This document shows positions 2,124 to 56,300 of a stretch of 64,000 bases of DNA, piece after piece. This stretch comes from Oidiodendron maius Zn. Its lineage: Eukaryota; Ascomycota; Leotiomycetes; Myxotrichaceae. The notes under the pieces were generated by a model. It ran no database searches, was not told the DNA's origin, and saw nothing but the letters and a program-made list of their open reading frames with translations. The translations under genes and the position numbers were made by a program. The stretch is taken from positions 2,404,096 through 2,468,095 of the forward strand of contig KN832872.1 in NCBI GenBank assembly GCA_000827325.1, in the 5' to 3' direction. Every line of letters begins with the position of its first letter. The first letter of the stretch is position 1.

Positions 2124-3226
2124 TCAGATTTCGATTGCATCAAGCAGCGTTTTGAAAACCTCCTCCACATTCATGGTGTAGTCCGGCCGAAAAAAAGTCT
2201 CGTCTCTTTGATTAACTAGTCCCATAATGGCGAACAGCTTATCTCGCCGGTCTGTGGCTTTCCGGTGGCGACTAGCATAGGCAATATCCAAGATGTCATA
2301 GGACGGACGTAAAATCTCTTTGCGCTGGCGTTCAATATGTTCTATTTGCAGATATAGCAGTTGTATAACTGTATCCGTATTGACTTGCGAGAGGCCAGCC
2401 TGTTCCCATTGTGGAGAGATGGCTGCGAATTTGATACGTCGTATGAATTTCAGCACCTGACTAGGATCATTCTCCCATTGAAAGCTGTCATTTCCGCACG
2501 TCATAATAGCCTTTCGAGAGACACATGATTCTTGAAGCACCCAAATGCGGTGGAACCAGTCTCGTTGCAGAATGTCGTTAAGTGCCGGAAAGAAAGCAAC
2601 GTCTTGCCTTTGCTGCCACGGTGCTGGCTCGTCCAAAGTTTTTTCAGCAAGGTATTTCAGCGCTTGCATGCCTATAGAGCTATTCATGCTAGCAGGGCCG
2701 AGCCATATTTGCACATTTTCTGCTCGGGCATATATATCTAGCATCAGCGCTACTTGGGTACTCTTTTCTACCGCAGATTGTTGATTAATACAAATCGCAT
2801 CGACCCATAGTATTCTAGGCTCCTTTGGAGAGCGGAAGCGTCTAAGCGCAACATCAAGATTAGGTAGGATTGCGAGAGAGTACTCGTCATCCACCAGTAT
2901 ATAAGACATATCGGCCCAACCGGAACCCCAAACGTATGACAATGCGTCGTATGGCACAGACCATTCTAATATCTCATGACCGTGCTCTGAGATAGTCCGT
3001 AGGTGAGAGTTGTGAATAATTCTTACCCGTAAAGGATCGTTCGGCGCGCCCGGGGCTAGTTCGATTACACGTATGTCGTTTGGATTGTCGAGCTGACGAT
3101 ATTGATACTGCTGGTGCCTGTTCCCCTGCCAAGTTGTCAGTTAACATTTAGTTAAGAAAAAGCAAACCTACATACTCCTGCAACTCGAGGATGATCATTT
3201 ACAACCTTATCGGTCACAATATTCAT
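2124..3226 (-). CDS. HET-domain (heterokaryon incompatibility) protein, short form
   Basis: Two exons: 3226-3176 and 3125-2124 (intron donor GTATGT, acceptor GGCAG, phase 0), giving about 350 residues. The HET core is clear: YRQLDNPNDIRVIELAPG, then PYDALSYVWGSGW, then RILWVDAICINQ, then WFHRIWVLQE, and near the end RRDKLFAIMGL. HET domains trigger cell death when incompatible fungal cells fuse and are TIR-like by remote homology. The protein stops soon after the core, whereas family members usually run on for some 200-400 more residues, so this is either a short form or 3'-truncated. The start ATG gives a short basic leader; no transmembrane or amyloid motif is visible. Confidence 0.8.
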
Positions 3227-3766: not shown

Positions 3767-5685
3767 TTACATACTCGCTACCGCCCTCTCTAGCACATCT
3801 ACAACATTAGTACGAAATGATTGCTGAAGCTTCAGATCCTCTCGGGTATCATTCACAACGCCAAATTGTCCAGTCAGACACTTCACAACAATATTCTTGT
3901 ACCTCTCTCCCATCTTGGACCCGAGTCGTCGCTCGGCCTGTTTGACCAGAGCCTTCTGCAGGAAGTCACGGCCCATTCGGTGAGCGTTCTCGATGTGCTG
4001 CATCTGGTCCCAGGATTCCCAGAGGCCAATCTCAAGTAAGACCACACCTGAAATAAAGACAAAGAATTAGCGATGCGCGGGAGGAGTTATGGCTTTGAAG
4101 AGACTAAAATTATTGGCCAAGGAAGAGTAGCCCCTTACCTAAGGCGTATATGTCATGTAGCTTATTGAACCGCGTCTCTGGGATGCCTTGCCGGCTTGGG
4201 TGGCGGTAGACGTCACGTTCGAGGCAAATATCCGTCATGCCAGATGAGAAGAAGTCTTCCGGCCGGCTAAATTCGAAACCGAAGATCCAGGGCTCCATAT
4301 AGTTAATACGGTCCTCGCTGGCGGAGCCCGTCTTTTGGGTGTCAGTCACAGGGAAGAAGAGGATATTCTCGCTGCGAAAGCTTTCATGGACCTATGCATA
4401 CAGTCAGAGTCTCTTTTTCTGAGGCATGTCAATTGATAGGCGGCCAACCAAGGCATTCACTTTCACGTGCTTAGGTAAAATGCAATTGGCATAGAGGGGT
4501 GGACTTAGCTTACCCATCGTACAAGCTGTAGTTGAGCGATTGACCGCGCAAGGCCGAACGCTACATTTAGTTTGTCGTTTAAGGTCGGTTTCAAGTTTCT
4601 ATTCCGTAGAAGGCTTAACAGACTTAGTGGCTGAGGGTCTCTTTCTGCAGGCACGTCAAAAACAAAGGCGATCTGGCATTGGTCGGGGATAAATTTCCAG
4701 CCCAAGCATCGCGGAATTAAAAAAGCCTGCTCTCGGGGTTGTTGAAGCATCCTTGTGAGTCGGTTGACCAAAGTCCTCGTCCTGCTATCTACGGCAATAC
4801 CGTCCACAGACGGCGGGGAGCTTGTCACAGAGTATTGGCGAAACTCTTGGATGACGTCCTTTCCATCGCAAACCGACAACCCAAAGTTACCTTGGGCCAG
4901 ACGAGTGTTGTCTAAAATGTCCAGCCATGGAGCATCTGGTAACTCGAGGTCCTCGCCACTTCCTTGAGCTGTCTCTGCGGTAAGCCGAAGATTCGCATCC
5001 ATAGAATAGCCCAAGTCGACAGAGTGAGGGTCGGTGTGGAGGTGGTGCAGGTGCTGCTGGGAGTTTACGCCTATCGAGGACGCAAGACATAACAACTTAA
5101 TATTTTCATGGATCCGGCGATTTATATCGGAGAATTCGTTAAGAATTACCGTTGCTCGCTTCTTGTCTCTGAAAGACCAACTGATATATTTCATAGGAGA
5201 CTTGGTAGACCGCCGCAGTGACGACAAGATGGTGAGGGTCTCCGGAGATTCGGATTTGTGGCAAGCATTGCCCTCTTTTTGGTAGCGCCTTTGAAGGAGC
5301 TCAACACCTTCGTGTAACTTTCCCAGCGGCTCAAGGAGCTCCAATTTGATTTGCTCTTGTGAATCATCGTCAAACGCTTCGAATAATGTCGAGCCGCCAT
5401 ATACAGAGGACGGTTCAAAGAGCAGAAGCTTTAGCTGCTTCGTCCGGTTATTTTCTTCTCGCAACTTCCCCTTGATCGTTCTGAAATCCTGCGGAGATGT
5501 TAGTAGGCCTTGCATGGAGGCTTGCGCCTGCACCCATGCCCTCTAGAAATGCCTATGTGAGAATATAACTTCCATACCTCGTCCAGTGCTCGTGCGTCGG
5601 ATATGAATTGATGGGTCCTCTCGCCGAGTTTCAGCAGCTGATCGAAGACCGCGATAGTCAGGCCTGGGATGCTGGTGGGATCCAT
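3767..5685 (-). CDS. HeLo-like domain-pseudokinase protein (fungal DUF7580-type)
   Basis: Four exons, 5685-5578, 5488-4514, 4391-4139 and 4047-3767, all in phase, give about 538 residues. The N-terminus (MDPTSIPGLTIAVFDQLLKL, about residues 1-200) is all-helical and resembles HeLo/prion-inhibition domains, which in the HET-S family permeabilise membranes. The C-terminal half resembles a degenerate kinase lobe: the catalytic-loop position reads WVHESFRSENILFF, so the proton-acceptor Asp of HRD is lost, and helix F reads DIYALGVVLLEIGLWE. The tail MGERYKNIVVKCLTG followed by DTREDLKLQQ is typical of fungal HeLo-kinase proteins. The DUF7580 label is from memory. The gene is head-to-head with the kinase-ankyrin gene, with 323 bp between start codons. 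Confidence 0.8.
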
Positions 5686-6008
5686 TGGTTGCGGTGACCA
5701 GTTGAACAGTTTGTCGATAGATATCACTATCCGTCAACATACGACATCTCCAGATGGTTGTTATAGACGTTACTGGCGTCAGTGGTCTGGCCACACCGCC
5801 ATCCAACCTTGGCGTTGTTGTGGCGGTCGCGGGCTGAAGCCGAGCTTCATGCAATGGGCCCAACCGCGCATCACGAGACATTTCAGCTGAAATGACACCA
5901 AGCCACCGGATGAATGACAGCTAGCCGCCCAAGTGCAAGCAGCATCGTCAACCATGCCTTACTCTGCACTCTCTTCAATATCGGTCATACGGGTTTTCAT
6001 CACTGGCA
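5686..6008. promoter_or_regulatory. divergent promoter region, HeLo-like/pseudokinase and kinase-ankyrin genes
   Basis: 323 bp separate the two start codons of oppositely transcribed genes, so both promoters must lie here or overlap the 5' ends. An upstream ATG at 5954 opens a short frame that overlaps the chosen kinase start and ends near 6037, so it could act as a repressive upstream ORF. No specific factor site was identified. Confidence 0.5.
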
Positions 6009-9000
6009 ATGGCAACCCCGGACCAGTTTTCCTTTGAGGTAAGCAATTGGCTGTGACCATTGCGATTGTCGCTAAATCATGGTAAGTATCACTGACTTCT
6101 TGTGTTACGCACAGCCTTGCCAGTCACTTCGCCAGAGGACATTAATCTCTAGCATTGGCGGCTTCTCCCAACCCGCAGCGAAGCAAATCAGGTCCCTGCA
6201 AGAATTGCTCCGAGCAATCCAACCTCTGCTACTGAGGCTTTACGACGGATCTGGTTTACATGAGGAGGAGGCCTTAGGGGAGGGCGTATCGTACAAGGTT
6301 TTCCGGTGTCGTGATACCCGGAGCCAGAAGGTCGTCGCAGTGAAGCAGGTCAAGTTACCGTCTTCCACGTCGGATTTTGAGTCGTTTCAGGGCCGAGTAT
6401 CATGTGTGCTCAAGGATATCGAGGTCATGCACCATGACCCTCTAGCCGAGCATCCTAATATTCTCAATCTCCTAGGCTACGGCTGGCAGCTGCAGCGGGG
6501 CTCCATACCATTTCTGGTCACTGAGTGTGCTACGCTGGGTACCCTGAGGCAATACCTGAAAGCCGTACCCATGAGCGCTCGCCAGCAGCAGAAATTTTGC
6601 CGCCATGTGGCTCTCGGTCTTCACGAACTGCACATGTCCGGTATTGCGCATGGCGACATCAAGCTCGACAACGTTTTGGTCATGCTGGAATCTCCTCTGG
6701 GCGCAGCAACTACGCCTGATGTCGACGAAGATGAGCAGAATCTCATGCCCGTTGCCAAGATATCAGACTTTGGTCACTCTCTTCTTCTTTCGGATGAACA
6801 AGGCGGAGACCGAGATCAGCGCTATCATGGGACTACGGCGTTTGTTGGCCGTCCTATTTTAATGATGGCCTTCTAACAGTATCTGTAGGTATAACGCACC
6901 CGAACTCTTCAGCGGTGATCACAGCCAGCAGAGAAATTGGAGCTCAACAGACTTTCGCAGATGTGATGTCTGGGCGTTTGGACTCTTATGTCTAGAAGCC
7001 TTGAGCAATGGAACACCTTATTACGGCGACCAAAGAGTTCGAGATGGCCTAAGTCGGTCGTCTGCAGGAAGCGGTAGTCGAACGTTAGTATCATCAGGCG
7101 ACTCTCAATATGATATTCTTGCGGTTCTACGGCCCTGGATCTGTGAAATTGCATTAATATTAGCCAAACGGCTCCATTCCCGGTTTACCTCGATGAACTT
7201 CATCAGAACATTTCGACTTTGCCTAGTTCACGACCACGCTGAACGAGCTTACGATGTTTCATCTTTGCCAATCCTCGCGTACGGAGTGAAGTAAGATTTA
7301 TTCTCATTACTTATTTCAAGAAATGTACTAACATTTTATTAGCCAGGAGGTGCCTCAAGTTAAGCCTCGCCTAAATGAGAGTACAGAAAAGCTCGGCCAG
7401 TGGTTGTTCGAGGTGCGTTTACGACATAGCCTTGCTTATGACTTATGATGAAATCTTATTAAATCTAGAGCTTTCGACCAAGACAAATAGCCGAGATTCC
7501 ACACATTGCAAAGTCCCAGATCTTCTTAGATTCTCAGCGGCTTGCTGTTACACAATCCTCTTCTGCTGCACGAGCTGCATTTCAAGCAGGGTTGGCGCAT
7601 GCTACCGGCTTTGGGACTCCAAAGAACCAAGCACAATTTTTGGCTTCAATGAAGAGTAGTTCTGAGAAAGGACATCCAACTTCAACCGCATTTCTTCCGT
7701 TCTTTGAGGAAACGTTTTGTCAAGATGATCTTGACCATCCTAAAGCTTACTCTCAGATTTTAGTGTCAGCATTTAAGCAATCCCTTGAGCTGTCTAAACA
7801 ACAAGAGATTCGCCGCGAGACATACAGATTGTCTCGTCACATTGAGCATCCTCCGGCCTTGAACCGACCTACTCCAAACCACAATGATGGTGGCAAAGAT
7901 CCCTCCACGGAACCTGTTATACTAGTTTTCGCCAGATCCGGTGATGCCCTCAAAGTACTGTCCATTCTGGAGGATGGCGCAGATCCTGCTGCACTTGGCA
8001 AAGATGGAACTAATGTTCTTCATTGGCTCTTCATGTTCCCGATTGATAAGATGAGGGAAATTGGTCAAAAGGTTTGCCAAAGGGAGGCTAGATACGGCTT
8101 GATAAACCAGATTGCCACCGGTTGTCGTGTTCTAGACTCACAGTTGCCTCTAGAGCTCCGAGGCACACCACTATCATATGCTGTGGCTACAGCATCACAA
8201 GAAGCCGTGAAGGTGCTCCTCGAGCTAGGAGCAGACCCAAACTTTGTGACTGGCCAGTCATCAAGGCATTACTCTCCTTTATGGCTTGCGACTAGCCTGC
8301 ATTTGCATGGATTATTAGCTCCAATGCTCTCAGTAACGGAATTAAGGGATCCCACACCTGGGGAGTCTACGGTCACGATTTTACACACACTTTCCGAGTC
8401 ATCACCATTGGAGCGGGAATTAATTCACGGTAGCAATACTTTAGCAGCGTGTCGAGAAACAGTGCGAGTCCTAGCGGCATCTAGCGAAGCGTTGAGAATT
8501 AGCATGCTATCAAAACCCGAGGAAATGATGGTTCCGGCATTAGAGGCTGCTATATCAGCTGCCGATATTACAGTTGCAAACACAATTCTGAATATGTTTC
8601 AAGATTTTATTCATGGCGAAGTTTCAGCAGCGCTTCAACTAGGCCGGATTGCAATTCTTCGCACTGCATTACATACCTCATGTCGAGACATTTACGACAA
8701 GGACACTGGATTCGGGCTGATTTCATTCGCTTTATCGCAAGGTTCAGATGTGAATGCTACGTCGCCACACTACCAGAACTCACGACCTATCTTTGTAACC
8801 ATTGAACACCAAAGAGAGGATCTGTTCAACTTCCTTCTTGGTCACGGGGAGGCAGATTTGACGGCTAGGGATAACAAGGGGCAGTGTATCCTTCATTTCT
8901 TTGCTATTCATGGCTTCTTTCAGTCTCTTCCCCTAAAGAAGATATTGGATATGGACATCTCCCTTGATACTGTTAACTCTCAAGGTGCTTCTCCCCTCCA

Positions 9001-11962
9001 CTATGCAGCCAGAAATGGCAGGCTTGGTCAAACACTGCTTCTTCTCGATCACGGGGCAAATGCATTGCATGCAGATTCTTCTGGCCACAAGGCACTCCAT
9101 CATGCAGTTATGTCCAAGCAACTCAACATTGTAACCGCAATCCTACCATTCGAAACCAATATAAATGCCAAAGATCGCGAAGGCATGACTGCACTTGCCA
9201 TTGCTGTCAAGGCTGGGTTGTACGACATCGTGAGACGTCTGTTAGATAGTGGAGCGGATGCCTCCGTAGCAAATGGAATTGGCAAATCGCCACTCCATTT
9301 CGCCGCCGAAGCCCACAGGTCTATGATAATAGAACTGTTGCTCAGCAGTCAATCCCAAGAGCAAGGGCTTGGTCTTCTCTGGGCACAAACTAATTCACGG
9401 CAGTCACCGCTGGATTTGGCTATTGAAAGTTTGGTTAGTGAGAGCGATGATCGCGCTGCATGCGATGTGCTACTTGATGCTGGTGCCGATCCCACAAAGT
9501 CCCTCTTAATGGCTTCCAGAAAAAGCAATGCCTGGCTCGTTAGGTATATTCTAAAGTACAGGCCAAACCTATCCTACTGTAATGCGGATGAGGAGACGGG
9601 ATGCACCTCAGCCCTAACAGCCGCAACATTGCTGGGCGAAGAGGATATTGTGCGACTACTCCTGGAAGCTGGTGCTGATTGTAACGCCTTGGACGGAAAT
9701 GGTAACAATGCCATTCATTGTGCTGTTATGGGCCAGAAGTGGAAACTCCTTGATGTATTCATTTCCCTCGCCTGCCCAATTCCAGCATTGAACGGTCCTA
9801 ATGCTAAAGGAGCAACGCCCATAGATTTGGCTCTTGAATCGGGCCCATTAGGCAGTAAGCGACTGTCTATTGGACTTTGCTACCAATTGCTGTCAGCTGG
9901 TGCTCGTTCCCCAAGCCGACCTTGGCCAAAATGGTTCAAAAAGCACGACCTAGAGTTTCTTCGAAGCCTTGATAATATGTCAGCATACTTCGATCCTGTC
10001 ACTGCATCACAGAAGCATATAGCATTCGCAAAGGAGTTTATAAGGGAAGGAATACACTCGAAAGGCGACGCTTCCGGCAGTGCGGACTTAACTTCCTTGC
10101 ATATTTGGGCAACTCTGCCCGCTATATGTAAGTTGAGCCGGTGGGGCTCTACTCAGACTTTTGCCATTACCAAAGCAACAGCCTGCCTTTTAGAATCTGG
10201 GGCAGATGGTTTAGCAACGGATAATGCAGGACGAACCGCATTGAGTAGAGCCATACATGCCAACAACGTCGTAATGTGCGGCGCTCTTCTTACACAGTAC
10301 ACACTGGTGATAGATGGTCTCGCTACGAATTTGAGCGGACGTGAGGAGACGATAACCGACAGAAAAATCATTCCAAATCTTTATAAGAAGGATGTTCAAG
10401 CTTGTTGGCTTGATGTTATCACCAATAGCAAGTTGAACATGATTGATGTCTTTATAACATCGAAGATTGACCTGGACATGACAACGATGGAACCAATCCT
10501 CATGGATCTATTTATCCATGCGCTGAGAGATAATATCAGACCAGTATTAGCAGAGTTTACTAGGTCAGATCAACTAGAATTAGAATTCGACAGTGAGCAC
10601 GAGCCTGAAGAAACTGCACCAATTTCGCCTCCTCGCCACAAGAAGATACTCCGGAGATTGATTGGACTGATGAGAAGTAGCTCTGTGGAAGAAGTCCAAG
10701 TCCCAATCAATTACCCAATTCAGGAAGCAGAAGAGCAAGCTTTAGGTTTCCAGAAACCGAGGGAATGTTTGCAGAGGTTCTGGAGGAATGATATTGTTGA
10801 AGCTGACTATTCCAAAATCAAGATATTGATTCCTCCGTCAAAACAGACGATACTTGCCACCATGATCATTGAAAACGGTCTTCTACAAAGCATAGAAAGG
10901 ATATCAAAACTTCTACTTGACGCGTTACCCTCACATTTAGTCGGTCCCGACTCTAGTACTGTCTCTGAACATGCTGCTGTACGCAAGTCTACTATTCTAG
11001 TTGCCAGCATCTCGGATATGGTGGCATCGAGCTTGACAAATATTTGGTCAACCAATTTTAAGGATATATCTATAGGTCTCCGACAGCTTCTCCTTGCTCA
11101 GTCTAATATTCAACTCAACCATATAGCAGGTTTACCACGTCCCCGAGAGCTCGTGTCTCTTCGTGCTGGCTTGGATTTACTTGATATACGCGTGAATGCA
11201 TTTATCAATTTCATTCAGGGAATTGCCCGAGATGCATCTCCTGTTCTCGCGATGTATTACGGTTTCGATGGTATTTCATTGCTACAAAATCTTCGAGAAT
11301 CTCCATTCCTATGGATGCGGAACTTAGCGCTTGACAAAGTTACGCCACCATCAAACACCGACGTATATTTTATGGTTGAGCCGGAAGTGGAAAGGATATT
11401 TAGCGAGATCGTTACAATCAGTTTGGTGACCCGGAAGAAAACTGCAAATATCCTTGAGCAAAGTTGGATGTATGCCCTATCAGCAGTGGAGATAGCAACA
11501 CTGAACAAGCTCAAGTTTCCCTACAAGGCATTGCATAAACTGCGCACTGCTTCGTCATTGCCACGCTCATTTGAAGCTAAATTTTCCACTCCTCGCCCAG
11601 TGAGCGATGTGAAAGTTTTGGCACCGGTTGGCCAGTGGTGGTTAATCAAGACGGACGAGGGTTCAATCGGGCTGGTCCCAGCTGAGAACTTAAGCCTGGC
11701 ACAAGCACCCCTACTTGAGTTTGGAGACACTTCGCCGACTATTTTTCCCTTCTTCGGGAAAGCCAAATATGTATATATCGATGCATTTGGCAAATCCTCC
11801 ACCTTACCTAATGAGGAAGTGTGCTTAGCATATAAAAGGGGACTAACAGGTAACTGGTGGGCCCGAACAGAGGATGGAAAGTTGTATAGACTATCATCCT
11901 ACCATGTTGAAGGGGTGCAACGCCATCCTACGGGCGCCTGGAAACAGTTTCCAGCTGAGTGA
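6009..11962 (+). CDS. protein kinase-ankyrin repeat-SH3-like giant protein
   Basis: Five exons: 6009-6038, 6115-6839, 6889-7290, 7343-7412 and 7469-11962. All junctions keep phase and the protein is about 1,906 residues. Kinase (about residues 50-385): glycine loop LGEGVSYKVF, beta-3 lysine VAVKQVK, catalytic loop HGDIKLDNVLV (Asp and Asn kept, Arg of HRD replaced by Gly), ISDFGHS, then a spliced TTAYNAPELFSG and CDVWAFGLLCLEALSNG. It looks catalytically competent. The long middle has many ankyrin repeats (for example GASPLHYAARNGRLGQTLLL). The end holds SH3-like segments (VGQWWLIKTDEGSIGLVPAE). There is no NACHT or NB-ARC domain. I preferred the ATG at 6009 because the alternative ATG at 6079 lies inside a good intron (GTAAGC...GCACAG). 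Head-to-head with the HeLo-like/pseudokinase gene. Confidence 0.82.
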
Positions 11963-27300: not shown

Positions 27301-30300
27301 CTAGGACTCTGTATCAAATTTATGATTGTGGTCCCTCCGCGCCTTTCTCCATGGGAGCAGTAGCTTTGCTAGCGCTTCGTGCCCCTTTTCTGCAGCATAT
27401 GATAGCGGCGTCCGACCACCGTAATCCTTAGTCTCCAGCTCTGCTCTTTTCTCCAGCAGCAACTTTACTACTGCCTCGTGCCCATTCTCTACAGCATATG
27501 ATAGCGGCGTCCGACTACTAAAATCCTTAGCCTCTAGCTCTGCGCCTTTCTCTAGCAGAAGCTTCACTACCACGTCGTGCCCATTCATTGCAGCATGTGA
27601 CAGTGGCGTCCGACTACTAAAATCCTTAGTCTCTAGCTCTGCGCCTTTCTCTAGCAGCAGCTTCACTACCGCCTCGTGCCCATTTATTGCAGCATATGAC
27701 AGCGGCGTCCCACTACCAAAATCTTTAGTCTCTAGCTCTGCGCCTTTCTCTAGCAGTAGCTTTATCACCGCCTGGTGCCCCACCCTTGCAGCATATGATA
27801 GCGCTGTCCGACTATTAGAATCCTTAGTCTCTAGCTCCGCGCCTTTCTCCAGCAGCAGCTTCACCAATTCTTCCAACCCATTTTGAGCCGCATAACTAAG
27901 AGCTGTTAACCCAGCCCTGTCCCTTACATCCAACGCCACCTCGTTTGTCTCCAGTAGCATTTTCACTATCGTTTCGTATCCCTGTGCAACTGCATAAATG
28001 AATGCGGTCCGTCCGAGGATGTCCCTCGCATTTACCTCTACGTCATTTGTATCTAATAGTAACTTTACTATTGAGGCATTCCCTCTTTTAGCTGCGCAAG
28101 ATAATGGCGTCCAGCCATCTCTATTGGTTGCATTTATGTCCGCCATCCACGTCCCGAGGAGTAAGCTGACTATCGTTTTATACCCTTGTTCTACCGCAAC
28201 ATACAGTGGTGTAGCAGCCGAGCTACCCGGAATCTCACCGTCATCCGTTACATTCAAATCCACTATGCCAGTCTTAAGGAGTAACTCGACCACCTCTGTG
28301 TGCCCTTGGTTCACTGCTAGCCACAGTGGAGTTCTGCTATGGATGTCTCTTGGATTGGGATCGGCATTCGGTTGAGCGAGTAGTAGCTTCACCTTAGACG
28401 TATCACCCATTTTAGATGCATCTAGCAGTTGCAAGTCCTCATTTGTCAGTTCTCCCTCGTATTTCGACTCATAAGGTTCGGAGTCTTCTTCATTATCGTG
28501 TGGGCCCGCTTGAACTATGGACCGCAAACCTGAGCGCTGCCCTGACGGCTTTGCTCCAGAAGCCTTGCTAGAATTGGAGCCTCCACCATCTGTGGATGCA
28601 AGGACCCCAGATTTGTGGTGCTGTTGCATCTTCTCCTGTCTCTCGGAGATGTCCTTAAGCCGGGAAGCAATGGAGACGGCGTCATTACTCATCTCGTCGT
28701 CTAATCTCTCTACCAGAGTTAGAGCCGATTGAAGTGCCTCTGTCGCTTTCTTCAGATCGTCCAGATCACCAGATTTCTGGCAAGCTCTTGAAAGTCCACA
28801 AAGTAGACTGAGTGACGTTTCACTGTTCGGCCACTCGACTCCATCTTCATGACTTCTTGTGGTTTCAAACTCGATGGATTTATAGAAACATTCCTTTGCT
28901 TCCTCCGACATACCAATGCTAAGGTATGCCCAGCCGGCATGATGGGTGATAACCGCGTAACCATTGCGAAGTCTTCCTTTCTGAGGAGCCAGATGATCCT
29001 TCGGAATGTGAGTCCGAACAAGTAAAAGACAGTGCTCAAGAGGTGCTAGATAATCACGTCTAACAATCTCATCTTTCTTGTCCACAGTAAGGGGGGTCCT
29101 GTAAAAGTTGTAGTTAGTAACCTATGTAGACGGTATCGGAATACGGAGGAACTTGTGCTGGGACTGAAACCGTTGAGGTTAAACGTACGAGGTGACCTCA
29201 GTGTTGAAAATATCTTCAGCCAGACCGTAGGTAGCTTGTATGATATAGTCCTGCATACTTGCAGCGGTTACGTTTTCCAAGCACCATTGGCACAAAACTC
29301 TGTGCATAATGAAACTCTTGATATGACCTTGCTCTTCGCGAAGCGTAATCAGGCAAAGCCTAGCGAGTTGACGTAGGGCCATTCGCAGAAAGTGTGGGGC
29401 ATTTAGGAGATCCTTTAGTCTTTCCAAGTCTTCTTGAATCGGATTTGGACTGCTGGCGTCGAAGAATTGGAACCGTTCCAAGAGAGATACTGGGATCTGC
29501 CATGAGCCGAGTACGCCTATGAAGTTAAGAAGTGAGGCGTGTGTAGGATTTTTCTTGACAGAACGGTGGTATATCATGTCGAGAATGGTCAAGAGCACCC
29601 GGTTTTTTTCGTAGGACCAGAATCCGTCCTGGGGAGCGTTTTCCATCAGTCGTCGATAGTCTGCTTTGTAGGTGCTCAGAAAATTGGAGAACGAAAACTC
29701 CCCGTCGCGAATCAGAGCGCCAGCCTGCTCTATCGCCAAAGGAATACCGCTCAACTCCTTCACAACATCTCTAGCTGCTCTGTGCTCTGCATAGATCGTC
29801 AGCATTGGAATTAGTAGTTGGTTGATCGGGACCGTACCGTCTTCATTCATCTCTGGACGCTCAGATCTCGCCACAAGAAGGGCCATGGAGCTTGGGGGAT
29901 CAAGACCATCTACCGCGAGTGGTTTTCCAGGCTTGAATCTACTACAAGCCTGATACCTTGTGCTGGTGACAAGGATTGAACCGTGCTCGCAAGCTGGGAT
30001 GTACCTCAAGAACTCATCTTGCTCTATGTCTTCGGCACTGTCAATAACCAGAAGCCACTTGTTGTACCTTGTAGAGTGGAGCCTTGCTGTCACCTTCACT
30101 GTGTTGTCAGCATCTGAGCTGCCATATAATGGAGGAAGTTCGCGCGGCCATGACGACGAGATGGCATCGGCGGCCTCGCCGAACGATGACCTGGCACGCT
30201 CCTTCGTAGATGCGTCAATCCAAATAATGGCCGAGTATCGCTGCCCATCTTGATAGATATGGCGAAGGCTAAGTTGCGTCTTTCCAGAACCCCCAATGCC

Positions 30301-31685: not shown

Positions 31686-32816
31686 GGCATATGCACTACA
31701 GAATGCGCTCAATCAACACTTAGCCGGCATAAGATATTGATTCCAGAAATCATATCTTGCACCCTTATGTAGTAGATAAGCCTCTTGCAGCTTTTATTCA
31801 AAGGCTCGGAATGCGGCGCGGTGCCGTGCAGGTCGATGTGGTGTAAGGCTGTAGGAGGTAGGTCCTGGGTTCAGATATCTAAGATAGTGTTCAGAAGCTA
31901 GTCCAATTTCGGTACCGCATGACCCACTCAAATGTTCATACTTGAAGCCTCGAATGCTAAATATCATGAGCTGTATGAAGGTAAACATGTTATGTATGCT
32001 GAAACCCCTTGATTTAAGTTACTTTGAGTCTGTATTTGGAATTCTGGTCTAGTAAGAACTACTGAGCATTTTTGCCCGAAAATACGTACCCCTCACGTGA
32101 TGCGTAACTGGACCCACTGGACATGACATCGGGGGATGTGGCTCGTGGATCGCCACAGCTACGGATTAAGGTTAACCAAGTTACTATATTTATATTCGAG
32201 TCCTTCCTTAGCTTCGAGTCTTCTGCTTCTTCTTCCCTCTTTAGCAACAACACCAACAACATTCCAAGTTGCTTGCAGGTAACCACATTTTGTAGCAGCA
32301 ATCGATTTGGGTCACATAGACTTTGGATTCGTGGAAGATGACCAATCAAATCGTTGGCGCAAGTTGTTCAACCTTCGCAGGAAAAGCATTCCAGACCAAA
32401 AAAAAGCCTCCTCTGACGCGACGAAGCCTCATGGCATTCCTTGACCTATAAAGTCACGGGATTAAGCCAAAACATTGCTCGGATTTCGAAGGAAAATATC
32501 AACCATAATCCGAAAACCGTTGCAGATTTAGACAACGGCCATCCGCACCATCTGCGCCATTCAAGCCTGGAGGAGCGAGTCAGCCTTATGCCATAGGCTT
32601 TATCTTAGCGGCAACTAAATCTATGCATTAGGGCAGCTATGCATCACCGTGGAAGTCAGGTTGAGAGATGCCTGAAATGCATTTCTGCCCAACTTCCACC
32701 TTTAATAGCTTCCACTCAGCCTCGTCTTCAGCAGTGGACATTCAGCAGTGGTCTCTGTATTTCTCATTATTACAATCACGACGAACAGATTAAAAGGTAC
32801 TCAGAATCGAGCTCTG
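31686..32816. promoter_or_regulatory. divergent intergenic region, patatin receptor and helical-domain/ankyrin gene
   Basis: 1,131 bp between two start codons on opposite strands. It holds both promoters. Several short open frames (for example 32059-32349 minus and 32123-32341 plus) overlap each other and show no family features. No specific regulatory site identified. Confidence 0.45.
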
Positions 32817-34914
32817 ATGGCTGAAGTTGTGGGTGCGTTGGCAAGTGGTGCTGGAATCGCTAGCCTTGGATGCCAAATTTTTGAAAGTATTTACAAGTTA
32901 CAGCAGACGTTGGCAGCCATTCAGAATGCTCCACAAGAACTAAAGACTATCTTGGAGGAGATTGCTATTGTTACAACAATCCTTGTCCAATATTCGGAAC
33001 GTCCACATCCTCTTTCAGTTAGCCAAAGCCAGAATGCCGCCAGAGAACAAGCTGTCCTTTACTGTGAAACAGCATGTAGGCAATTATTTACCCTCGTCTC
33101 CGAGATAGAAAGCGGTATAAGAGAATCACAATACCGCTCTCGGTGGTATTGCTTCCTAGCTGTACTGAAAGCAAAAAGAATTGGGGACTTAGTTGCTAGG
33201 CTTGAGAGAGCAAAGTCAATTCTTGCACTTGCACAGCTTATGTATCTTCAGTAAGATCTTATTTCTCTTGATAATTGTTATGAACTAACGACAAACTGGT
33301 CTGTTGAAATTGAGAGGCTCGACCAAAAAGCAAGAACCTCGTCGCTTTCTGCCGAAAAAAGCCCTGAGGTTTTGACTTCGACTACGCTTATAAGTCAAAA
33401 TCAAAATGATCAAATTAGTACTTTGTACAATGAGATAACTTTTCATCTAGGCATTGGTGTACTCGTGGTACGTCACGTACTAAGTGACACTGGAAGAAGT
33501 CTCCCATCTCTAGAAGATGCTCTGTTCCAGTTTCGCTTTGCAGACTGGTTCTTAAGATGGGGAATTAGTATCGCAATCTGTCGAGAAATGGAGAGTCTCA
33601 AAATAACGATAAGAACCATTCCCATTGTTCCTGCTAGTTCGGCCATCTTCCAAGCTTGTGCATTGGGCGACGACCAGACAGTTGCCCGACTCATCCGAGA
33701 AGGCAAGGCCTCTGTATTCAATATGACTAGTCAAGGAGTAACTCCTCTACACGTAAGGCATAAATTGATCACCCTACTCAAATCTAATCCCTCTTGCTAA
33801 GCAATATCTATTTTTAACCTATCTGATCTATTGGTTTAGGTTGCGGCCGCTTGGCATCATCCAAGTACCTGCAAGCAGCTTTTGGAATACGGCGCAGATG
33901 GTTCGATGTTACTAAAGGGTCACACAATCTCTTGGTACGTCATGTATGAAAGCAATCAACTAATTAATGGCCCACTGATAGCAACTTTCAAGGAACTCCC
34001 TAGGTTTAGCCGCTGAATACGCCGGTCGTTACCGTACATTCTTGTTCACAGGATTGGAAGAATATCGCCCTGGGCCAAAAGAATGTCTCGAGCGGAAACG
34101 AGAGACGATGCGCATACTCACTGACCACAATAGTTGTGAAGTACATCAGGGTTACAGTTCAGATAAAACCGGGTATTGGAATGGGTCTACGTCCGCTCTG
34201 CACATGTTTCGAGGCACTTCCGAAGACGTCTTATGGTTAAGCAGGCGTGAAAATGCATTTATGACTGTTGGAGACTCAGACGATTACATTGCGTCCATTG
34301 TCATTCAACAGACTCAGATGTTTCCAAATGACTCTTTTCCAGCTGCCTTCAACCAAGTGTCCAAGATAGAACATTTGGCAAATTACAAAACCTCTTATGG
34401 ATCAAGCCTATTGCATTATCTTTGCAGCTCAAATTCAGGCACAGAGCCTGGTTTTTGGATGAATGGGCTCGATATTTTCGATTTCGCCAGGATCCTGCTC
34501 GAGCACGGCGCTGACCCGACAGCTCGTAATAACCAAGGTAACACTCCATTGATGGTTGCTGCTAAGCGTAGCTTAATCTACTTCTTGAGCAATGGTTTAT
34601 GCTGGACAGCTGAATCAGCAGCTGAAGTTTACTCTGGATATTTGACTCGTTGGATAAAGACCTTAGAGGCTTGTCACGTTGACAGTCGTGAGTACCTCTC
34701 CCGAGAGGTTGAATCTGGTGCGGAGAATTTTATGCCTTGTCTATTATTTGAAGATAGCAAAAACGGTCCTAATGGGTCTAAGCATTGGTTCGTAAGAATA
34801 GTGTTTGAACAAGGTGGTATGAACCAAGAACTTCGGATTAAATTCCAGTTCCAATCCGAAGACAAGAAAAAGGTAATGCCTGGGACTTGGCCCAGTGAAA
34901 TAGTGGAGAGTTAG
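32817..34914 (+). CDS. STAND-type helical N-terminal domain protein with ankyrin repeats
   Basis: Four exons, 32817-33250, 33317-33752, 33840-33934 and 33993-34914, give about 628 residues. The N-terminal 140 residues (MAEVVGALASGAGIASLGCQ ... KLQQTLAAIQNAPQELKTIL) match the helical, HeLo/SesA-like domain found at the front of many fungal STAND proteins. Ankyrin repeats follow: GVTPLH|VAAAWHHPSTCKQLLEYGAD, with splicing between GVTPLH and VAAAWHH, and later LLEHGADPTARNNQGNTPLM. No NACHT or NB-ARC is present. Rather than the ATG at 32748 I chose 32817, because the domain begins exactly there. Likely cytosolic. As the partner of the divergent patatin receptor it could be an adaptor, decoy or sensor; that role is inferred only from position and domains. 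Confidence 0.78.
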
Positions 34915-35574: not shown

Positions 35575-38125
35575 CTAGAACATTAAGAACACAGACATTA
35601 AAAAAGTAGCCACCATTCCCACAACGACCGAAGGAACATATGAGTTACTGGCACCTGAACCTGGCACAAATGGCCGCGGTGTCGCGATTACTGTTGACGT
35701 TCCCAGACCCGTCGACCCCGGGATCGTGGTATTGGCCGCAGAAAGGAGAGATGTTGAGGATGGCAGAGATGGGAGTGGAGGTGGAGCCGTCGCGGATGGG
35801 GGTGGAGCCGATGGGAATCCGCCAACTGAGTAGATAACTGGACCAATTCCGCCGCTGCTCGAGCTCGTACTGGTGACTGTGGCATAGATGAAAGCCTGAG
35901 TAAAGGTCCAGGATGGCGAGGGTTTATTTGCTACTGGATAGGTCGTCGTTCCGCTTATTGTAACCGTGTAGGTGATTAGTGGTTGCGAAGAAGCGACGAA
36001 CACGGTGCTTGTGATTGGTGTTTCGATAGGTGTCATTTCTACAGAGCTAGTGATGACCACCACTGGCACGCTAGCAGGGCCCGTTGCTGTGATCGTTTCG
36101 ATTGGAGATGGCGGAACGGTAAGGCCGGTTTCGGTGGCTGGGCAGATGGTAGTGTATTCGATGATTGTTCTTGTTTGGATTATTTCGGAGGTTAGGGAGT
36201 ATGGACACCATTCCACATGGGACATACATTTGGTCACTGTGTATATCTCGGTGGTCGATTTTGTAGAAGTAATTAGCTGCTGCGAAGTCACTTGTGGGTA
36301 GGTGTGTGTGAGGGAAGTCGTGGAATGAGAATGTTGGGTCGAAAGGGTATGAGATTGGGAGTGATTCATGGAATGAGAATGTTGGGCTGAAAGGGTGTGA
36401 TATTGTGAGTGAATCATGGAATGAGAATGCTGGTCCGAAAGTGTATGATATTGTGAGTTAGTGTGTTTGAGGGAAGTGGTGGAATGAGAATGTTGCACTG
36501 AAGGGGTATGAGATTTTGAGTGATCCTTCTCCACTACGGAAGTAGTCTCTGTAGGAGATTTGTGGTAGCTGCTGGCTTGGCTTTCCGTCTTCTTTTCCGT
36601 CGAGGAACTAGTATGCTTTGACGTCTCAATTTTCTTGCTCGTAACCGCGCTATGATGAGAGGTTGTGGTCTGGGTCGGCTCATGTGAAGTATGTGGCGAG
36701 GTAGGCTTCCTTGTGGTCGCGGCTTTGGTTGATGTATACATCTTTTCCTTCGTTGTGATGCGAGTCTCAGGAGCTGATGTATGTACAACATGAATTTCTG
36801 TGTGTTGAGGAACAGGCGAGGTCGTCAGTTTCTTGATGGTGGTGCTGTGCACCAGTGCCGAAGTCCTGAAGCACTGCGATGGTAAAGGGCCTGTCATATA
36901 GGTCGAAACAGCAGTCGGCCCAACAGATAGCTTGGCAAAATCAAGATTCGCTACCGCCCTGGCGTAGGCTCCAATGTCTTCATAAAAGTCCTCTGTAAAT
37001 GCCACCTCACATGGCAGCGACGGCTGATATTGCACGCATGCCTTATACACTACGGGATCCCAGAACACTCCAGCCTCAAAGTCGAAGCCAAATCCTTCAA
37101 ATCCTACAGCGACTCCTATTTGACCCTTGAGCCGTAAAACTGCAGTCACGCATGCAGAGCCTTTTTTGAATTGAAATGGTATGGAGTTCACTTTGACCCC
37201 GCCACTGAGCATCTATGTTAGCACAGTATGAGTATCAAGTGGGAGCCTTTCAAGAGAACTTACACGTCCATAGATACAATTTTACCGGTGAACGGGTCTA
37301 TAATAATGTTCGCGCCAGGCGGGAAGCTAACGTCGAATCCAACTGTGAAGTCAACCTGACCTTGAACCGTGAAGATCACGTCAAGCTCAATCACCACTCC
37401 CACTTTATCACTCTCATTAATCTGATGACGGTTAGCCACGTCATCACGACAATTTGTGACGGGTTGTTAGCAAGGCTGTATTCAACAGCCTCACCTACGT
37501 CCTCCGGGAAAGAGATGTACGTACCTCGACTCCAACCGGAGTTTCTGATTTGAAGAGCGTAACGGTATAGCTTCCAGCCTCAGCGAAAGCAATATCAAAC
37601 TCGAAATGTCCGCCAATATTCTCAAGACTGAATTTTATGTCCAGATCAAGATCACTGACAACATCATTGAGCGACGGATGCTCTATAAAGTGCCAGATAC
37701 TCGAGATAATCGACGAATGATCGGTCACACCGGTAGTGGTGACGACCACCTCCCCGGTAGTGTAGCACGATGGGCAAGTGACTGTAAGAGAAGTGGTCTC
37801 CGACGTGGACTCGTCCGGGCTGATGCCCTGTTTCTTTCCTAATGCACTGTTGAGATATTTAGCAGGCTGGTGAAATATGATCGGGCTGGAAGAGTGCATA
37901 CATTTGAAGCAGAACATAATTCTTTGGGAACTGCCTGGCTAGAGAAAATGTCCCGAGGTGAAAGGTTGGCAAACGCCTCTCCACGCCATCATATACTTCA
38001 AGATCTAGTTGCAGTGGCTGCCGAACAGCTGCGTAACTTACATCGTGTCCAGTGTAGGGCCGCGGCGCAGAAGAAAGGGCTGGCAAGGCTCTCGCAAGAA
38101 TACAGAAGGAAGAACCCCACTTCAT
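35575..38125 (-). CDS. mucin-like GPI-anchored cell-wall protein
   Basis: Four exons, 38125-37902, 37846-37525, 37421-37264 and 37204-35575 (about 777 residues). A signal peptide is visible (MKWGSSFCILARALPALSSA). A conserved beta-rich ectodomain follows, with CPSCYTTG, then GGHFEFDIAFAEAGSYT, then FTVQGQVDFTVGFDVSF; it is known to me from uncharacterised fungal wall proteins. From about residue 330 the protein is a Ser/Thr/His/Pro-rich stalk, including a repeat of the type HTLSxQHSHSMxHSQ. The end has a small-residue site (PGSGASNS) and a hydrophobic tail, as in GPI attachment. It should sit on the plasma membrane or wall, heavily O-glycosylated. Adhesion or metal binding by the His-rich repeat is possible but unproven. 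Confidence 0.85.
36308..36520. repeat. His/Ser-rich tandem repeats in the cell-wall gene
   Basis: About four imperfect units of roughly 50-60 bp, each encoding QHSHS with a short Ser/Thr/Tyr-rich spacer. Variable copy number is likely in such stalk repeats. Confidence 0.75.
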
Positions 38126-39676: not shown

Positions 39677-42600
39677 TCAATTAATATACTTGCGTAGCAG
39701 CTTGATGACCGCTTCGTGCCCGTTCCCAGCAGCCCATGACAGCGGCGTCAGACCATCTTTATTCTTCGAGTCAGCATCAACCTGGCCAGTCCCGAGCAGC
39801 ATCTCGACGACTGCCTCGTTGGCGTTCCCAGCAGCCCATGATAGCGGTGTCCGACCACCGTTATCCTTCAAGTCAGCATCAACCTGGCCAGTCTCGAGAA
39901 GCAGCTTGACGATCACCTCGTGCCCGCTCACAGCAGCCCATAATAGCGGTGTCCGACCGTCTTCATCCTTCAAGTCAGCATCGACCTGGCCAGTCTCGAG
40001 AAGCAGCTTGACGACCGCCTCATGCCCGTTCACAGCAGCCCACAATAGCGGTGTCCGACCGTCTTCGTCCTTCAAGTTAGCATCGACCTGGCCAGTCTCG
40101 AGAAGCAGCTTGACGACCGCCTCGTGCCCGTTCCCAGCAGCCCATGATAGCGGTGTCCGACCATACCTATTATCCTTTGAATTAGCATCGACCTGGCCAA
40201 TCTCGAGTAGCAGCTTGACGACCGCCTCACGCCCTTTCGTGGCAGCCCATGATAGCGGCGTCCGACCATAATTATCCTTGGAGTCAGCATCGACCTGGCC
40301 AGTCTCGAGCAGCAGCTTGACGACCGCCTCGTACCCGTTCGTAGCAGCCCATGATAGCGGCGTCTGACTATACTTATCCTTAGAGTCAGCATCGACCTGG
40401 CCAGTCCCAAGTAGCAGCCTAACGATTGCTTCGTGCCTGTTACAAGCAGCCCCACATAGTGGCGTCCAACCGTCTTTATCCTTCAAGTCAGGGTCGACCT
40501 GGCCAGTCCCGAGAAGTAGCTTGATGACCGCCTCATGCCCGTTCCTAGCAGCCCACCATAGCGGCGTCCGACCGTCTTCATCCTTGCTATCTGCTATATA
40601 TTCCCCAGTCTCAAGCAGAAAGGCAAGGAGTATCTCGTTGCCGTGTTCTGCAACATAAGAGAGCATAGCCCTTTGCCGTGAGAAAGCAAATTTGCGTCCA
40701 AAGTTGGCCCGCTTGTTTCTATCCTGGCAGTACTGTTTGCATAGGTCATGAAGCAGAGACGTCGGGGGGTGGATTTCCGCCTTGATTTCTAAAAACGTCC
40801 GGACAGCTTCATCACTCCCGGTAGCCAGTGCGGCAAATATTGGCGGCCCATAACGCTCATCTTCTACTTCGAAGCAGGATAGGTTAGATGGGTGAACTTT
40901 AATAAGATTTGGCATGTTGCGCTCTGCCAATATATATAAAAGACTCGCATTTAGAGAATGTCGGCGTATTTCGTACCTCTCGAAGAGGTTATCCAGGTTA
41001 ATCCAATTAGTAAGCGGGAAGTTTTGAACAAAATCCTTCTGGTTGACCCCGCCCCCTTCTGCTATATCGGCGTGGTAGAAAACGTTCTGTACAGCGTACT
41101 GTAGGAACGGAAACGCTTTAGCTGCTAACTGTCGAAGGGCTGCGGCTTCATACGATGATGATCTCGGAAGTGGAGCGCCGATGTTCAGATAGGTAGAGAT
41201 GTCAATGCTCATGTAGTTGAGACAGCACAGCTTTAGTCGCTCGTGGCTTTGTCCTTGGAAGTTGTTTCCGAGGTCGGACCAAACTGCCCTTAGCCCGCTT
41301 TCTTTAAGGAGAAAGTCCCTCACTGACTCGTGAATGAATTGAACACTTGGAGTCTTGGCTGTTGTGATTTCGGCGAGCCCTTTCGAAGAATTGAGAATAA
41401 ATCTCTTTATGGCGTCTATCGCAATCTCATCGGAATCCCACTTTGATAGGTCTTGAGGTTCAATACCGGAAAGAATAGCAAAGTACAATTCCTCCGGCTT
41501 TAGCGGTTGTCTTGCGAAGAGTAGCCATTGAATACATAACAGTAGTTCGTTTCTATTGCAATTGTCTCGTGTTAAAATATCGCGGAAAAGCTCGTGCAGA
41601 TCGCTAGGGATATGTCGGAGTCTTTGCCGAAGCGCGTGTATACGGCCATCATCGTGCTCCTTGTTCAATATGTCTACCACAAGGACAACCCACATAAACA
41701 CACCGGATGCCTTCTCTTGAAGTTCAAGTCTGATCTGCTCAGCCAGTTTGCTATACCCGATTTTCAAGTTGCTATCGATATAGCTAGTAATGTCCTGAAT
41801 GTGTCCCTCTTGTCCTTCTAAGACAAGACTGAGTCCATTCCTCATTGTGACATGTGGGTAGTGTCTGCTGGAAAAACAGATTTGAAATCGAATCCTGGTT
41901 GAGACGGCGAGTTCCCCCAGATGTTGAAAAAATGTCACCATGTCTCGAATCTGATGTTCATCACATTCATCCAAGGCGTCAATGAAACACATCACAGAGA
42001 ACTGCCCCAGTGTTTGTATGGCTTGTCCGAAGAGATCTTTTAGTAATTCGACGCTCCATTGGTGATGACTACTACTATTCCACGGCGTAAAGCCGAGAGA
42101 GTCAAAGACACATTGGAGCTCTGGTAGTCGCTCTAGGAGTTGCAATAACAGCGATCGATACATCCCGATCGTACACTTCTCGAGGTCTGCTCCTCGCGCG
42201 TTAAAGAAAAAGGAGATGATGATTCTGTCTTTCATCATCTTCCGGGAATTATTAAGAACAAATTTCATCATAGTCGACTTTCCAGTTCCAGGCTTCCCTT
42301 TCATCCATAAGAAGCCATGATGTTCGTGTAGTTTAGCGGTATCAAGCCAGTCGAGATATTCGGACTTTTTCAGTATCCATTCGCATGTCTTGGCGTATGC
42401 TCTTTTGATGGTCATCTGGCGAGCATCTATTTGGTCAAATCTCAATGAGTCTACCAGCGTCCGCCTCTGCTCTTCGTTGAGAAGAGGGGTCTCTCCCCTT
42501 CTTGACTGCCTAGAGACCATCCTCGTCATTCTGTGGAGTGCAGCAACGACCTTCTTATATTCGACGTCATCAAGTCCTGCGAAACGACACATGTCCATGT

Positions 42601-53366: not shown

Positions 53367-56300
53367 TTATACCACCGTATAAGGTGGTATCTTAGCCAGA
53401 TCAAATTCAATAAAAGTAACTCGACCAAACGCATGTCCCATGACCAGAATGTTATCTCGTACAGCAAAGACTGTTGGTCGATAATCAGTAGGAAGGAATA
53501 AAAGATTTTCTGTCTCCCAAGTCACCCATTGCTTTTTGACATGTAGGCATGATGAAAATTCGGCCTGTAGTTGACCAACTGAGCGACAGAGACAACTGAG
53601 CTCAAATGGTCCGTGCTCAGTCTTGAGATATGACCCGTCACTGGAGAAAGAAAGGATAAAAATCCATTCTTCAGTGATAAATACCCGAATTGCTTTATTT
53701 GACCTTGGGTCCCAGAGCCTGACTGTCTTGTCACTAGAGGCAGAGGCTAGAAGCTGACCGTCTGGTGAAAAGGCTACTGCATTGACCCAATCTGAATGAC
53801 CCTCCAGAGTGCCATGTAACACTCCTGTCCTTACGTCCCAGAGCCTGACTGTCCTGTCGCTAGAGGCAGAGGCTAGAAGTTGACCATCTGGTGAAAAGGC
53901 CACTGCATGGACCCTACCTGAATGACCCTTGAGAGTGCTGTATGACGCTCCTATCCTTGAATCCCAGAGCCTGACTGTCTTGTCATCAGAGGCAGAGGCT
54001 AGAAGCTGGCTATCTGGTGAAAATGCCACTGCATAGACCTTACCTGAATGACCCTTGAGAGTACCATACGACGCTCCTGTCCTTGGGTCCCAGAGCCTGA
54101 CTGTCTTGTCGCTAGAGGCAGAGGCTAGAAGCTGACCGCCTGGTGAAAAGGCTACTGCATGGACCCAACCCGAATGTCTCTCGAGAGCGCTGTATGATGC
54201 TCCTGTCCTTGGGTCCCAGAGCCTGACTGTCTTGTCATCAGAAGCAGAGGCTAAAAGCTGACTGTCTGGTGAAAAGGCCACTGTATAGACCCTACCTGAA
54301 TGACCCTCGAGAGTGCCACGTGACACTCCTGTCCTTGGGTCCCAGAGCCTGACTGTCTTGTCATCAGAGGCAGAGGCTAGAAGCTGGCTGTCTGGTGAAA
54401 AGGCCACTGCATGGACCCTACCTGAATAACCTTCGAGAGTGCTGCGTGACGCTCCTGTCCTTGTGTCCCAGAGCCTGACTGTCTTGTCATCAGAGGCAGA
54501 GGCTAGAAGCTGACCGTCTGGTGAAAATGCCACTGCATTGACCCAATCTGAATGACCCTCCAGAGTGCCACGTGGCACTCCTGTCCTTGGGTCCCAGAGC
54601 CTGACTGTCTTGTCGCTAGAGGCAGAGGCTAGAAGCTGACCGCCTGGTGAAAAGGCTACTGCATGGACCCAACCCGAATGTCTCTCGAGAGCGCTGTATG
54701 ATGCTCCTGTCCTTGGGTCCCAGAGCCTGACTGTCTTGTCATCAGAAGCAGAGGCTAAAAGCTGACTGTCTGGTGAAAAGGCCACTGTATAGACCCTACC
54801 TGAATGACCCTCGAGAGTGCCACGTGACACTCCTGTCCTTGGGTCCCAGAGCCTGACTGTCTTGTCATCAGAGGCAGAGGCTAGAAGCTGGCTGTCTGGT
54901 GAAAAGGCCACTGCATGGACCCTACCTGAATAACCTTCGAGAGTGCTGCGTGACGCTCCTGTCCTTGTGTCCCAGAGCCTGACTGTCTTGTCATCAGAGG
55001 CAGAGGCTAGAAGCTGACCGTCTGGTGAAAATGCCACTGCATTGACCCAATCTGAATGACCCTTAAGAGTGCCACGTGACGCTCCTGTCCTTGTTCCCAG
55101 AGCCTGACTGTCATGTCGCTAGAGGCAGAGGCTAGAAGCTGGCTGTCTGGTGAAAAGGCCACTGTATTGACCCAACCTGAATGACCCTTGAGAGTGCCAT
55201 ATGATGCTCCTGTCCTTGGGTCCCAGAGCCTGACTGTCTTGTCGCTAGAGGCAGAGGCTAGAAGCTGACCGTCTGGTGAAAAGGCCACTGCGCTGACCCT
55301 ACCCGAATGACCCTCGAGAGTCTGTGAAGAGAAGTTCCAATCATCCTGCACTTCTGGTAGACGACAGATCCACCGTGGGAACTGGTCTGAGAACTGTCTC
55401 CGAACTGTGCTCTCCTTAGGGGAGAACAAAAGAGCGGCAGAATATAACTGGAGAGGTACCTCTTCAATCATCGATCGGTTATAAAGGATGAATCGTTTTG
55501 CATCATGAAGAATAGCATATATACCGGAGCTCTCGTCTCGCTTTAAAATATCTGGGTTTCGGTTGTGGAGGATGAATCGTTTCGCACCATGAATGATAGT
55601 ACGCAAACTAGAGGGGTTGTTTCGCATTAAAACCCCTGAGTTAGTATCTGAATTAATACTGCTCACTATCATAGATTCTAAATCTGTCACCATATGAACG
55701 CTCTCGGACGCTATCCCCATCAAGCTGAGGGCTTCGAGCCAATGAAGGAGGTGCTTCTGCAGGAATATGTGCGCTTGGCTGTTGTCACGGAGATCTGCTT
55801 TACTCATCTGGAGATGTTGGACCCAATAGCGGCACGCGTACTGAAGCTCTGCTGGAATACATTGTTCGACCAAACTGCTGTCAATACTGCTCGCGAGCCG
55901 GCCTGGCGCGCATAGGCCACAGATATCCCTCTTAAGATTTTCGGACATGAGCCACAGGCACCTCTCAGCTAGAGCTTCATGTGCTTTCTTCTCGTCCACC
56001 CAGAAGGATTCATTGCGGCATCTCTGCTTGTTGAGGAGAAAGTCGCGGAACGAAGGGTGATGTAGACGAATATAGCAGTCTGGGTCTTTTGGCACGTCTA
56101 GAATGGAATGAAGGCTGTCTAGCGTGTGACCTATATCGATTTGGGAAATGTGAAGTAACCTGGCTAGAGAGATAATAGAAAGGGAAGAAAAGAGGATAAC
56201 TATAGGTCCAAGCGTTCCTCTCAACGTCTTGTATAAATTTTCTGTCTCGTAGTCGTCATATTTTTCGCTGACCGAGTTTGTCAGAATTGTAGTGTAGATC

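Follow-up and report, generated by a model that had tools for sequence, protein, structure and literature searches.

HeLo executioners, MLKL and a head-to-head gene pair in Oidiodendron maius

In the fungal HeLo executioners that are best characterised, the switch is amyloid templating by NOD-like receptors (NLRs). In Podospora anserina, the genes for HET-S and NWD2 lie side by side as executioner and sensor, a layout shared by other fungal cell-death genes (PMC10197012; PMC12881547), and of the eight HeLo proteins that this fungus has besides HET-S, seven are up-regulated during incompatibility (PMC3689799). MLKL, a cell-killing protein of animals, has homologues in plants and fungi. Human MLKL has HGK at the HRD position and GFE at the DFG position of its kinase-like domain and retains the VAIK lysine (PMC6013482). 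On the fungal side, HeLo-like domains in kinase and pseudokinase proteins have already been noted in a 2025 review (PMC12881547), an MLKL homologue has been named from Basidiobolus (PMC11476962), and Glomeromycotina are reported to have MLKL-family homologues that carry Sel1 repeats (PMC8778642); the accessible text of these three papers describes no partner kinase gene. Here we analyse 64,000 nucleotides of Oidiodendron maius Zn (contig KN832872.1, positions 2,404,096 to 2,468,095; 'the window'), in which a gene for a HeLo-pseudokinase protein (gene A; 3767..5685, minus strand) stands head-to-head with a gene for a kinase-ankyrin protein (gene B; 6009..11962, plus strand).

With somewhat better than even confidence, we read A as a fungal HeLo-pseudokinase and B as a candidate sensor kinase, both belonging to the repertoire of non-self recognition and regulated cell death, whichever partner triggers A. 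The reading draws on features seen directly in the locus: the HeLo (just sub-threshold) and DUF7580 profiles and the HES and GFE motifs of A, the intact lysine, HGD and DFG of B, the open gene models and head-to-head layout, and the HET/NLR context. A and B are known kinds of protein, and since HeLo-like kinase and pseudokinase proteins of fungi are already in print, any novelty would lie in the pairing of A with an active kinase; no report of a HeLo-pseudokinase gene paired with an active kinase gene was found among the literature matches listed, which excluded subscription papers and preprints.

Gene models and the shared intergenic region

Both gene models were predicted from the genomic sequence, and neither contains an internal stop. 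Gene A encodes 538 amino acids in four exons on the minus strand (5685-5578, 5488-4514, 4391-4139 and 4047-3767) and gene B 1906 amino acids in five exons on the plus strand (6009-6038, 6115-6839, 6889-7290, 7343-7412 and 7469-11962), the stop codon being included in each case. All seven introns have GT-AG borders and measure 49-122 bp, and six of them carry, by eye, a branch-point-like CTAAC, CTAAT or CTGAC near the 3' end; in intron 4 of gene B (7413-7468) no clear branch-point sequence could be seen. The locus is a head-to-head, intron-containing one, fungal in type by its gene content, in which the two start codons are separated by an intergenic gap of exactly 323 bp (5686..6008 in the gene models, assigned to neither strand), as the preliminary description of this DNA had it. 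This gap presumably serves as a shared divergent promoter. Scans of the whole 64-kb window with Rfam (at the gathering threshold) and for tRNAs returned no matches. Searches that were seeded from six short peptides per query, and so reach close relatives only, detected no relatives when A exon 2 was compared with viral contigs and prokaryote genomes and B exon 2 with viral contigs, which is no surprise for genes of a fungus.

A probable HeLo-type domain followed by a pseudokinase in gene A

By profile, gene A likely carries a HeLo-type domain at its N-terminus (residues 12-164; 5105..5652, minus strand, interrupted by intron 1), an assignment that falls short of proof by cut-off or by fold. 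The Pfam family HeLo (PF14479), whose curated cut-off is 23.2 bits, matches residues 1-190 alone with E 2.1e-4 and 21.6 bits and the whole protein with E 0.0029 and 17.9 bits, the alignment extending over profile positions 11-175 of 205. A HeLo match was seen in none of six composition shuffles of residues 1-190 and in none of eight other proteins whose Pfam families were all listed; for a ninth, a WD40 protein, HeLo was absent from the best 25 of 67 Pfam families. The N-terminus of A matched neither SesA nor PigL_N at E values up to 10, and A exon 2 had no match in NCBIfam. The earlier proposal of a HeLo-like N-terminus therefore stands as far as the profile match goes but not at the level of the curated cut-off, and the near-miss score is the reason why we term A HeLo-type rather than file it as a certain HeLo member.

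The C-terminal half of A (matched residues 320-536; 3776..4639, minus strand, interrupted by introns 2 and 3) belongs to the DUF7580/pseudokinase type. DUF7580 (PF24476) matches the C-terminal 348 residues with E 3.2e-10 and 40.6 bits, over its cut-off of 27, and the whole protein with E 9e-10 and 39.1 bits; PK_Tyr_Ser-Thr matches the same half weakly (E 0.0035, below cut-off). Read by eye, the kinase landmarks of A are recognisable but dead. HES occupies the HRD position (H363, E364 and S365; 4380..4388, minus strand), so that serine replaces the catalytic Asp, and GFE occupies the DFG position (G399, F400 and E401; 4272..4280, minus strand), both equivalences being assigned by eye. In the same way, the APE region can be placed at VYRHP and the alpha-F region at DIYALGVVLLEIG, and no equivalent of the VAIK lysine is evident. 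The loss of the catalytic Asp had been claimed beforehand on the strength of HESFRSEN preceded by WV, and this motif is indeed present, within a protein that DUF7580 recognises. The segment that follows GFE, FSRPEDFFSSGMTD, contains four Ser/Thr residues (S403, S410, S411 and T414); that a kinase would act on them is something we infer only.

How does A compare with the described executioners? Like MLKL, A would combine an N-terminal bundle of the HeLo/four-helix-bundle type (sub-threshold in A) with a C-terminal pseudokinase that lacks catalytic residues and has GFE at the DFG position; unlike in MLKL, the kinase part is of DUF7580 type and the VAIK lysine is not evident, and activation by phosphorylation, a trait of MLKL, is hypothetical in A. 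The resemblance at the HRD and DFG positions may be convergence. With HET-S, A would have the HeLo domain in common (again sub-threshold) as well as the layout of adjacent sensor and executioner genes, but HET-S has an amyloid prion-forming domain where A has a pseudokinase. With the fungal HELL-kinase and HELL-pseudokinase proteins (PMC12881547) and the MLKL homologues, finally, A shares its general architecture or its superfamily, as judged from their published descriptions; it matches HeLo PF14479, however, and no HELL-type families.

We propose that A would be a helical HeLo bundle of the HET-S/MLKL kind, restrained by the dead kinase-like DUF7580 domain acting as a switch; judging from what is known of these families, the HeLo part would attack the membrane and the pseudokinase would gate it. 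Is A a killer at all? Its helical N-terminus and pseudokinase could instead form a scaffold or regulator, for instance in stress signalling, that resembles HeLo proteins without being toxic. The sub-threshold HeLo score and the only mildly hydrophobic character of the first 19 residues (Kyte-Doolittle mean 0.57) would suit such a protein; the extent of the alignment to the HeLo profile, together with a dead-kinase C-terminal half that recalls MLKL, speaks against it, and we hold a non-toxic A to be unlikely.

An apparently active kinase joined to ankyrin repeats in gene B

Residues 59-301 of gene B (6259..7036, plus strand, interrupted by intron 2) make up a protein kinase domain, matched by PF00069 with E 3.8e-29, and it retains the residues required of an active kinase: the beta-3 lysine K87 of VAVK (6343..6345), E113, which by eye is the presumed alpha-C Glu, D191 of the HGD catalytic loop (6649..6657) and D228 of DFG (6766..6774), the three motifs being read on the plus strand. 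The intact-looking kinase claimed before on the basis of VAVKQVK, HGDIKLDN and DFG is thus borne out, as is the large ankyrin part said to follow it. The core of the latter (residues 915-1164; 8984..9733, plus strand), defined by the best stretches of five ankyrin families, is covered by Ank_2 (E 1.9e-43), Ank_4, Ank, Ank_5 and Ank_3 in Pfam, and the repeats extend beyond it, there being seven Ank_2 stretches in all; in tblastn, matches to the other ankyrin genes of the window span residues 617 to 1239. The C-terminal 287 residues matched no Pfam family at E <= 10 (the first part of this query contained one wrong letter). A Sel1-like look of residues ~445-480, noticed by eye, was discarded, as residues 410-558 matched no Pfam family at E <= 10.

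RIPK4/ANKK1 join a kinase to ankyrin repeats, as B does, and Pfam includes models for RHIM, the death domain and amyloid motifs. Among fungi, Cryphonectria vic4 is a locus with a kinase gene; a description of the vic4 genes did not turn up in the literature text consulted. At E <= 1 in Pfam, B contains neither the RHIM nor the death domain of RIPK1/RIPK3, neither the NACHT nor the NB-ARC domain that would make it an NLR, no WD40 and no amyloid-motif family; NCBIfam added kinase and ankyrin-type matches only, all of them sub-threshold. Among PDB sequences, phmmer placed phosphorylase kinase first (2phk, E 7.6e-11), followed by calcium-dependent kinases, and there was no RIPK among the best 60 of 618 matches. 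B therefore resembles RIPK3 in having a kinase able to act upstream, and differs from it in the domains just named; from NWD2 it differs in having a kinase and ankyrins and no Pfam match to NACHT, WD40 or amyloid-motif families. According to a survey of Sordariales, the constitutive domains of fungal NLRs include protein kinase domains (PMC12258605). On this anatomy, B may act as a sensor kinase within the cell, and it would be the nearest candidate trigger of A, to which it may nevertheless adjoin by chance.

Points that weigh against the proposed reading

A number of results count against reading the two genes as a HeLo-pseudokinase and its candidate sensor kinase. The HeLo score stays under the curated cut-off for the whole of A and for residues 1-190 alike. 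Searched with phmmer against the PDB, neither the whole of A (E <= 1) nor residues 1-190 (E <= 10) found MLKL or HET-S, and the last 322 residues found no PDB chain at E <= 10. Single-sequence AlphaFold models were too poor to reveal a fold, both for A exon 2 (mean pLDDT, the model's own confidence score, 33.7) and for residues 37-186, which came out all-helical with a mean pLDDT of 48.1; for this reason, the Foldseek outcome with the low-confidence model of residues 37-186 (no match among 81 at E <= 0.001) is not counted as evidence either way. As for the link between the two proteins, Pfam at E <= 1 disclosed no amyloid signalling family and no other module common to A and B, the kinase superfamily aside, and BLASTP found no similarity between the A pseudokinase and the B kinase (E 1.2), which implies that the two kinase parts are not a recent duplication.

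The surrounding 64 kb

The window is a block of genes of the kind used in non-self recognition. Besides A and B, it holds a single HET gene, four genes of NLR type and a SesA/ankyrin gene, all read from open reading frames (ORFs) rather than from full gene models and assigned with Pfam. The HET gene (2124-3140, minus strand; E 1.7e-30) is one of these. A HET-NACHT-WD40 gene (~17057-12415, minus strand) is convergent with gene B, 3' end facing 3' end, and its architecture is that of the Podospora het-d/het-e/het-r family. Further along come a patatin-NB-ARC-ankyrin gene (31712-27301, minus strand) with a sub-threshold TPR match, a gene in which a SesA/PigL-type domain (SesA E 1.3e-5, just below cut-off) precedes ankyrins (32709-34914, plus strand), a gene combining a hydrolase (sub-threshold), NPHP3_N, which is NACHT-type, and ankyrins (43449-39677, minus strand), and a PNP-NACHT-WD40 gene (58419-53367, minus strand). 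Such a HET/NLR neighbourhood supports a role of A and B in fungal immunity or incompatibility. In the Sordariales survey, NLR clustering is reported for the majority of taxa (PMC12258605).

Several repeats were encountered in these genes. The WD40 part of the PNP-NACHT-WD40 gene is a near-identical tandem array (53703-55321; period 126, 12.9 copies, 86% matches), which is what repeat homogenisation through recombination would give, and the ankyrins of two NLR-type genes likewise form tandem arrays (39696-40585 and 27356-27864; periods 102 and 99, 84% matches each). A 48-base repeat of 3.1 copies with 84% matches (36307-36458) lies within a Ser/Thr-rich ORF (35575-37212, minus strand) that had no Pfam match at E <= 0.01. 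The SesA-ankyrin and patatin-NB-ARC genes make up a second divergent pair of cell-death type, with presumed starts ~1.1 kb apart by eye.

Partners or chance neighbours?

Does B trigger A, or do the two genes merely adjoin? The reading favoured above, of A as a HeLo-pseudokinase and B as a candidate sensor kinase, overlaps with both answers, which differ from each other in the partner that they assign to A. In the first, the genes would form a dedicated necroptosis-like pair: B would sense a ligand through its ankyrins and phosphorylate the activation segment of A, whereupon the HeLo bundle would be freed and the membrane permeabilised, much as in the RIPK3-MLKL couple. The anatomy of the two proteins is complementary, one kinase domain being dead and the other intact, the 323-bp divergent layout would permit co-expression, and fungi offer precedents for adjacent sensor and executioner genes (PMC10197012; PMC12881547). 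Divergence is, on the other hand, common among neighbours in the window, where roughly four of the 15 adjacent gene pairs show it in a rough count by eye from ORF lists; head-to-head layout alone is therefore uninformative, though 323 bp is tight, and a signalling motif common to A and B is missing in Pfam, as noted above. We consider a dedicated pair of this kind doubtful. Taken strictly as a two-gene, kinase-driven fungal necroptosis, in which an ankyrin-sensor kinase phosphorylates the adjacent HeLo-pseudokinase killer without amyloid templating, the idea is in our view rather improbable.

It is conceivable, and not far from an even chance, that A and B, as separate members of large fungal families, are neighbours by accident; something else, for example an NLR or a HET protein, would then control A, and B would have other substrates. 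A window so rich in genes of this kind, where 64 kb hold the six HET, NLR-type and SesA-ankyrin genes listed above in addition to A and B, may bring two of them together by chance. Furthermore, tblastn of both proteins against the window (E <= 1) yielded ankyrin matches only; neither A nor the B kinase turned up a second time, and hence there is no repeated A-B pair. What chance explains less readily is the tight head-to-head spacing and the functional complementarity of the two proteins, which is suggestive.

Implications for fungal cell death

The pairing of a kinase with a HeLo protein, as A and B present it, is a good hypothesis and a plausible one, to which we assign a low probability for now. 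If it is true that a neighbouring kinase activates a fungal HeLo-pseudokinase, the kinase-to-pseudokinase step of necroptosis would extend beyond animals, and the A-B locus renders this kinase-to-HeLo question testable in a laboratory fungus.

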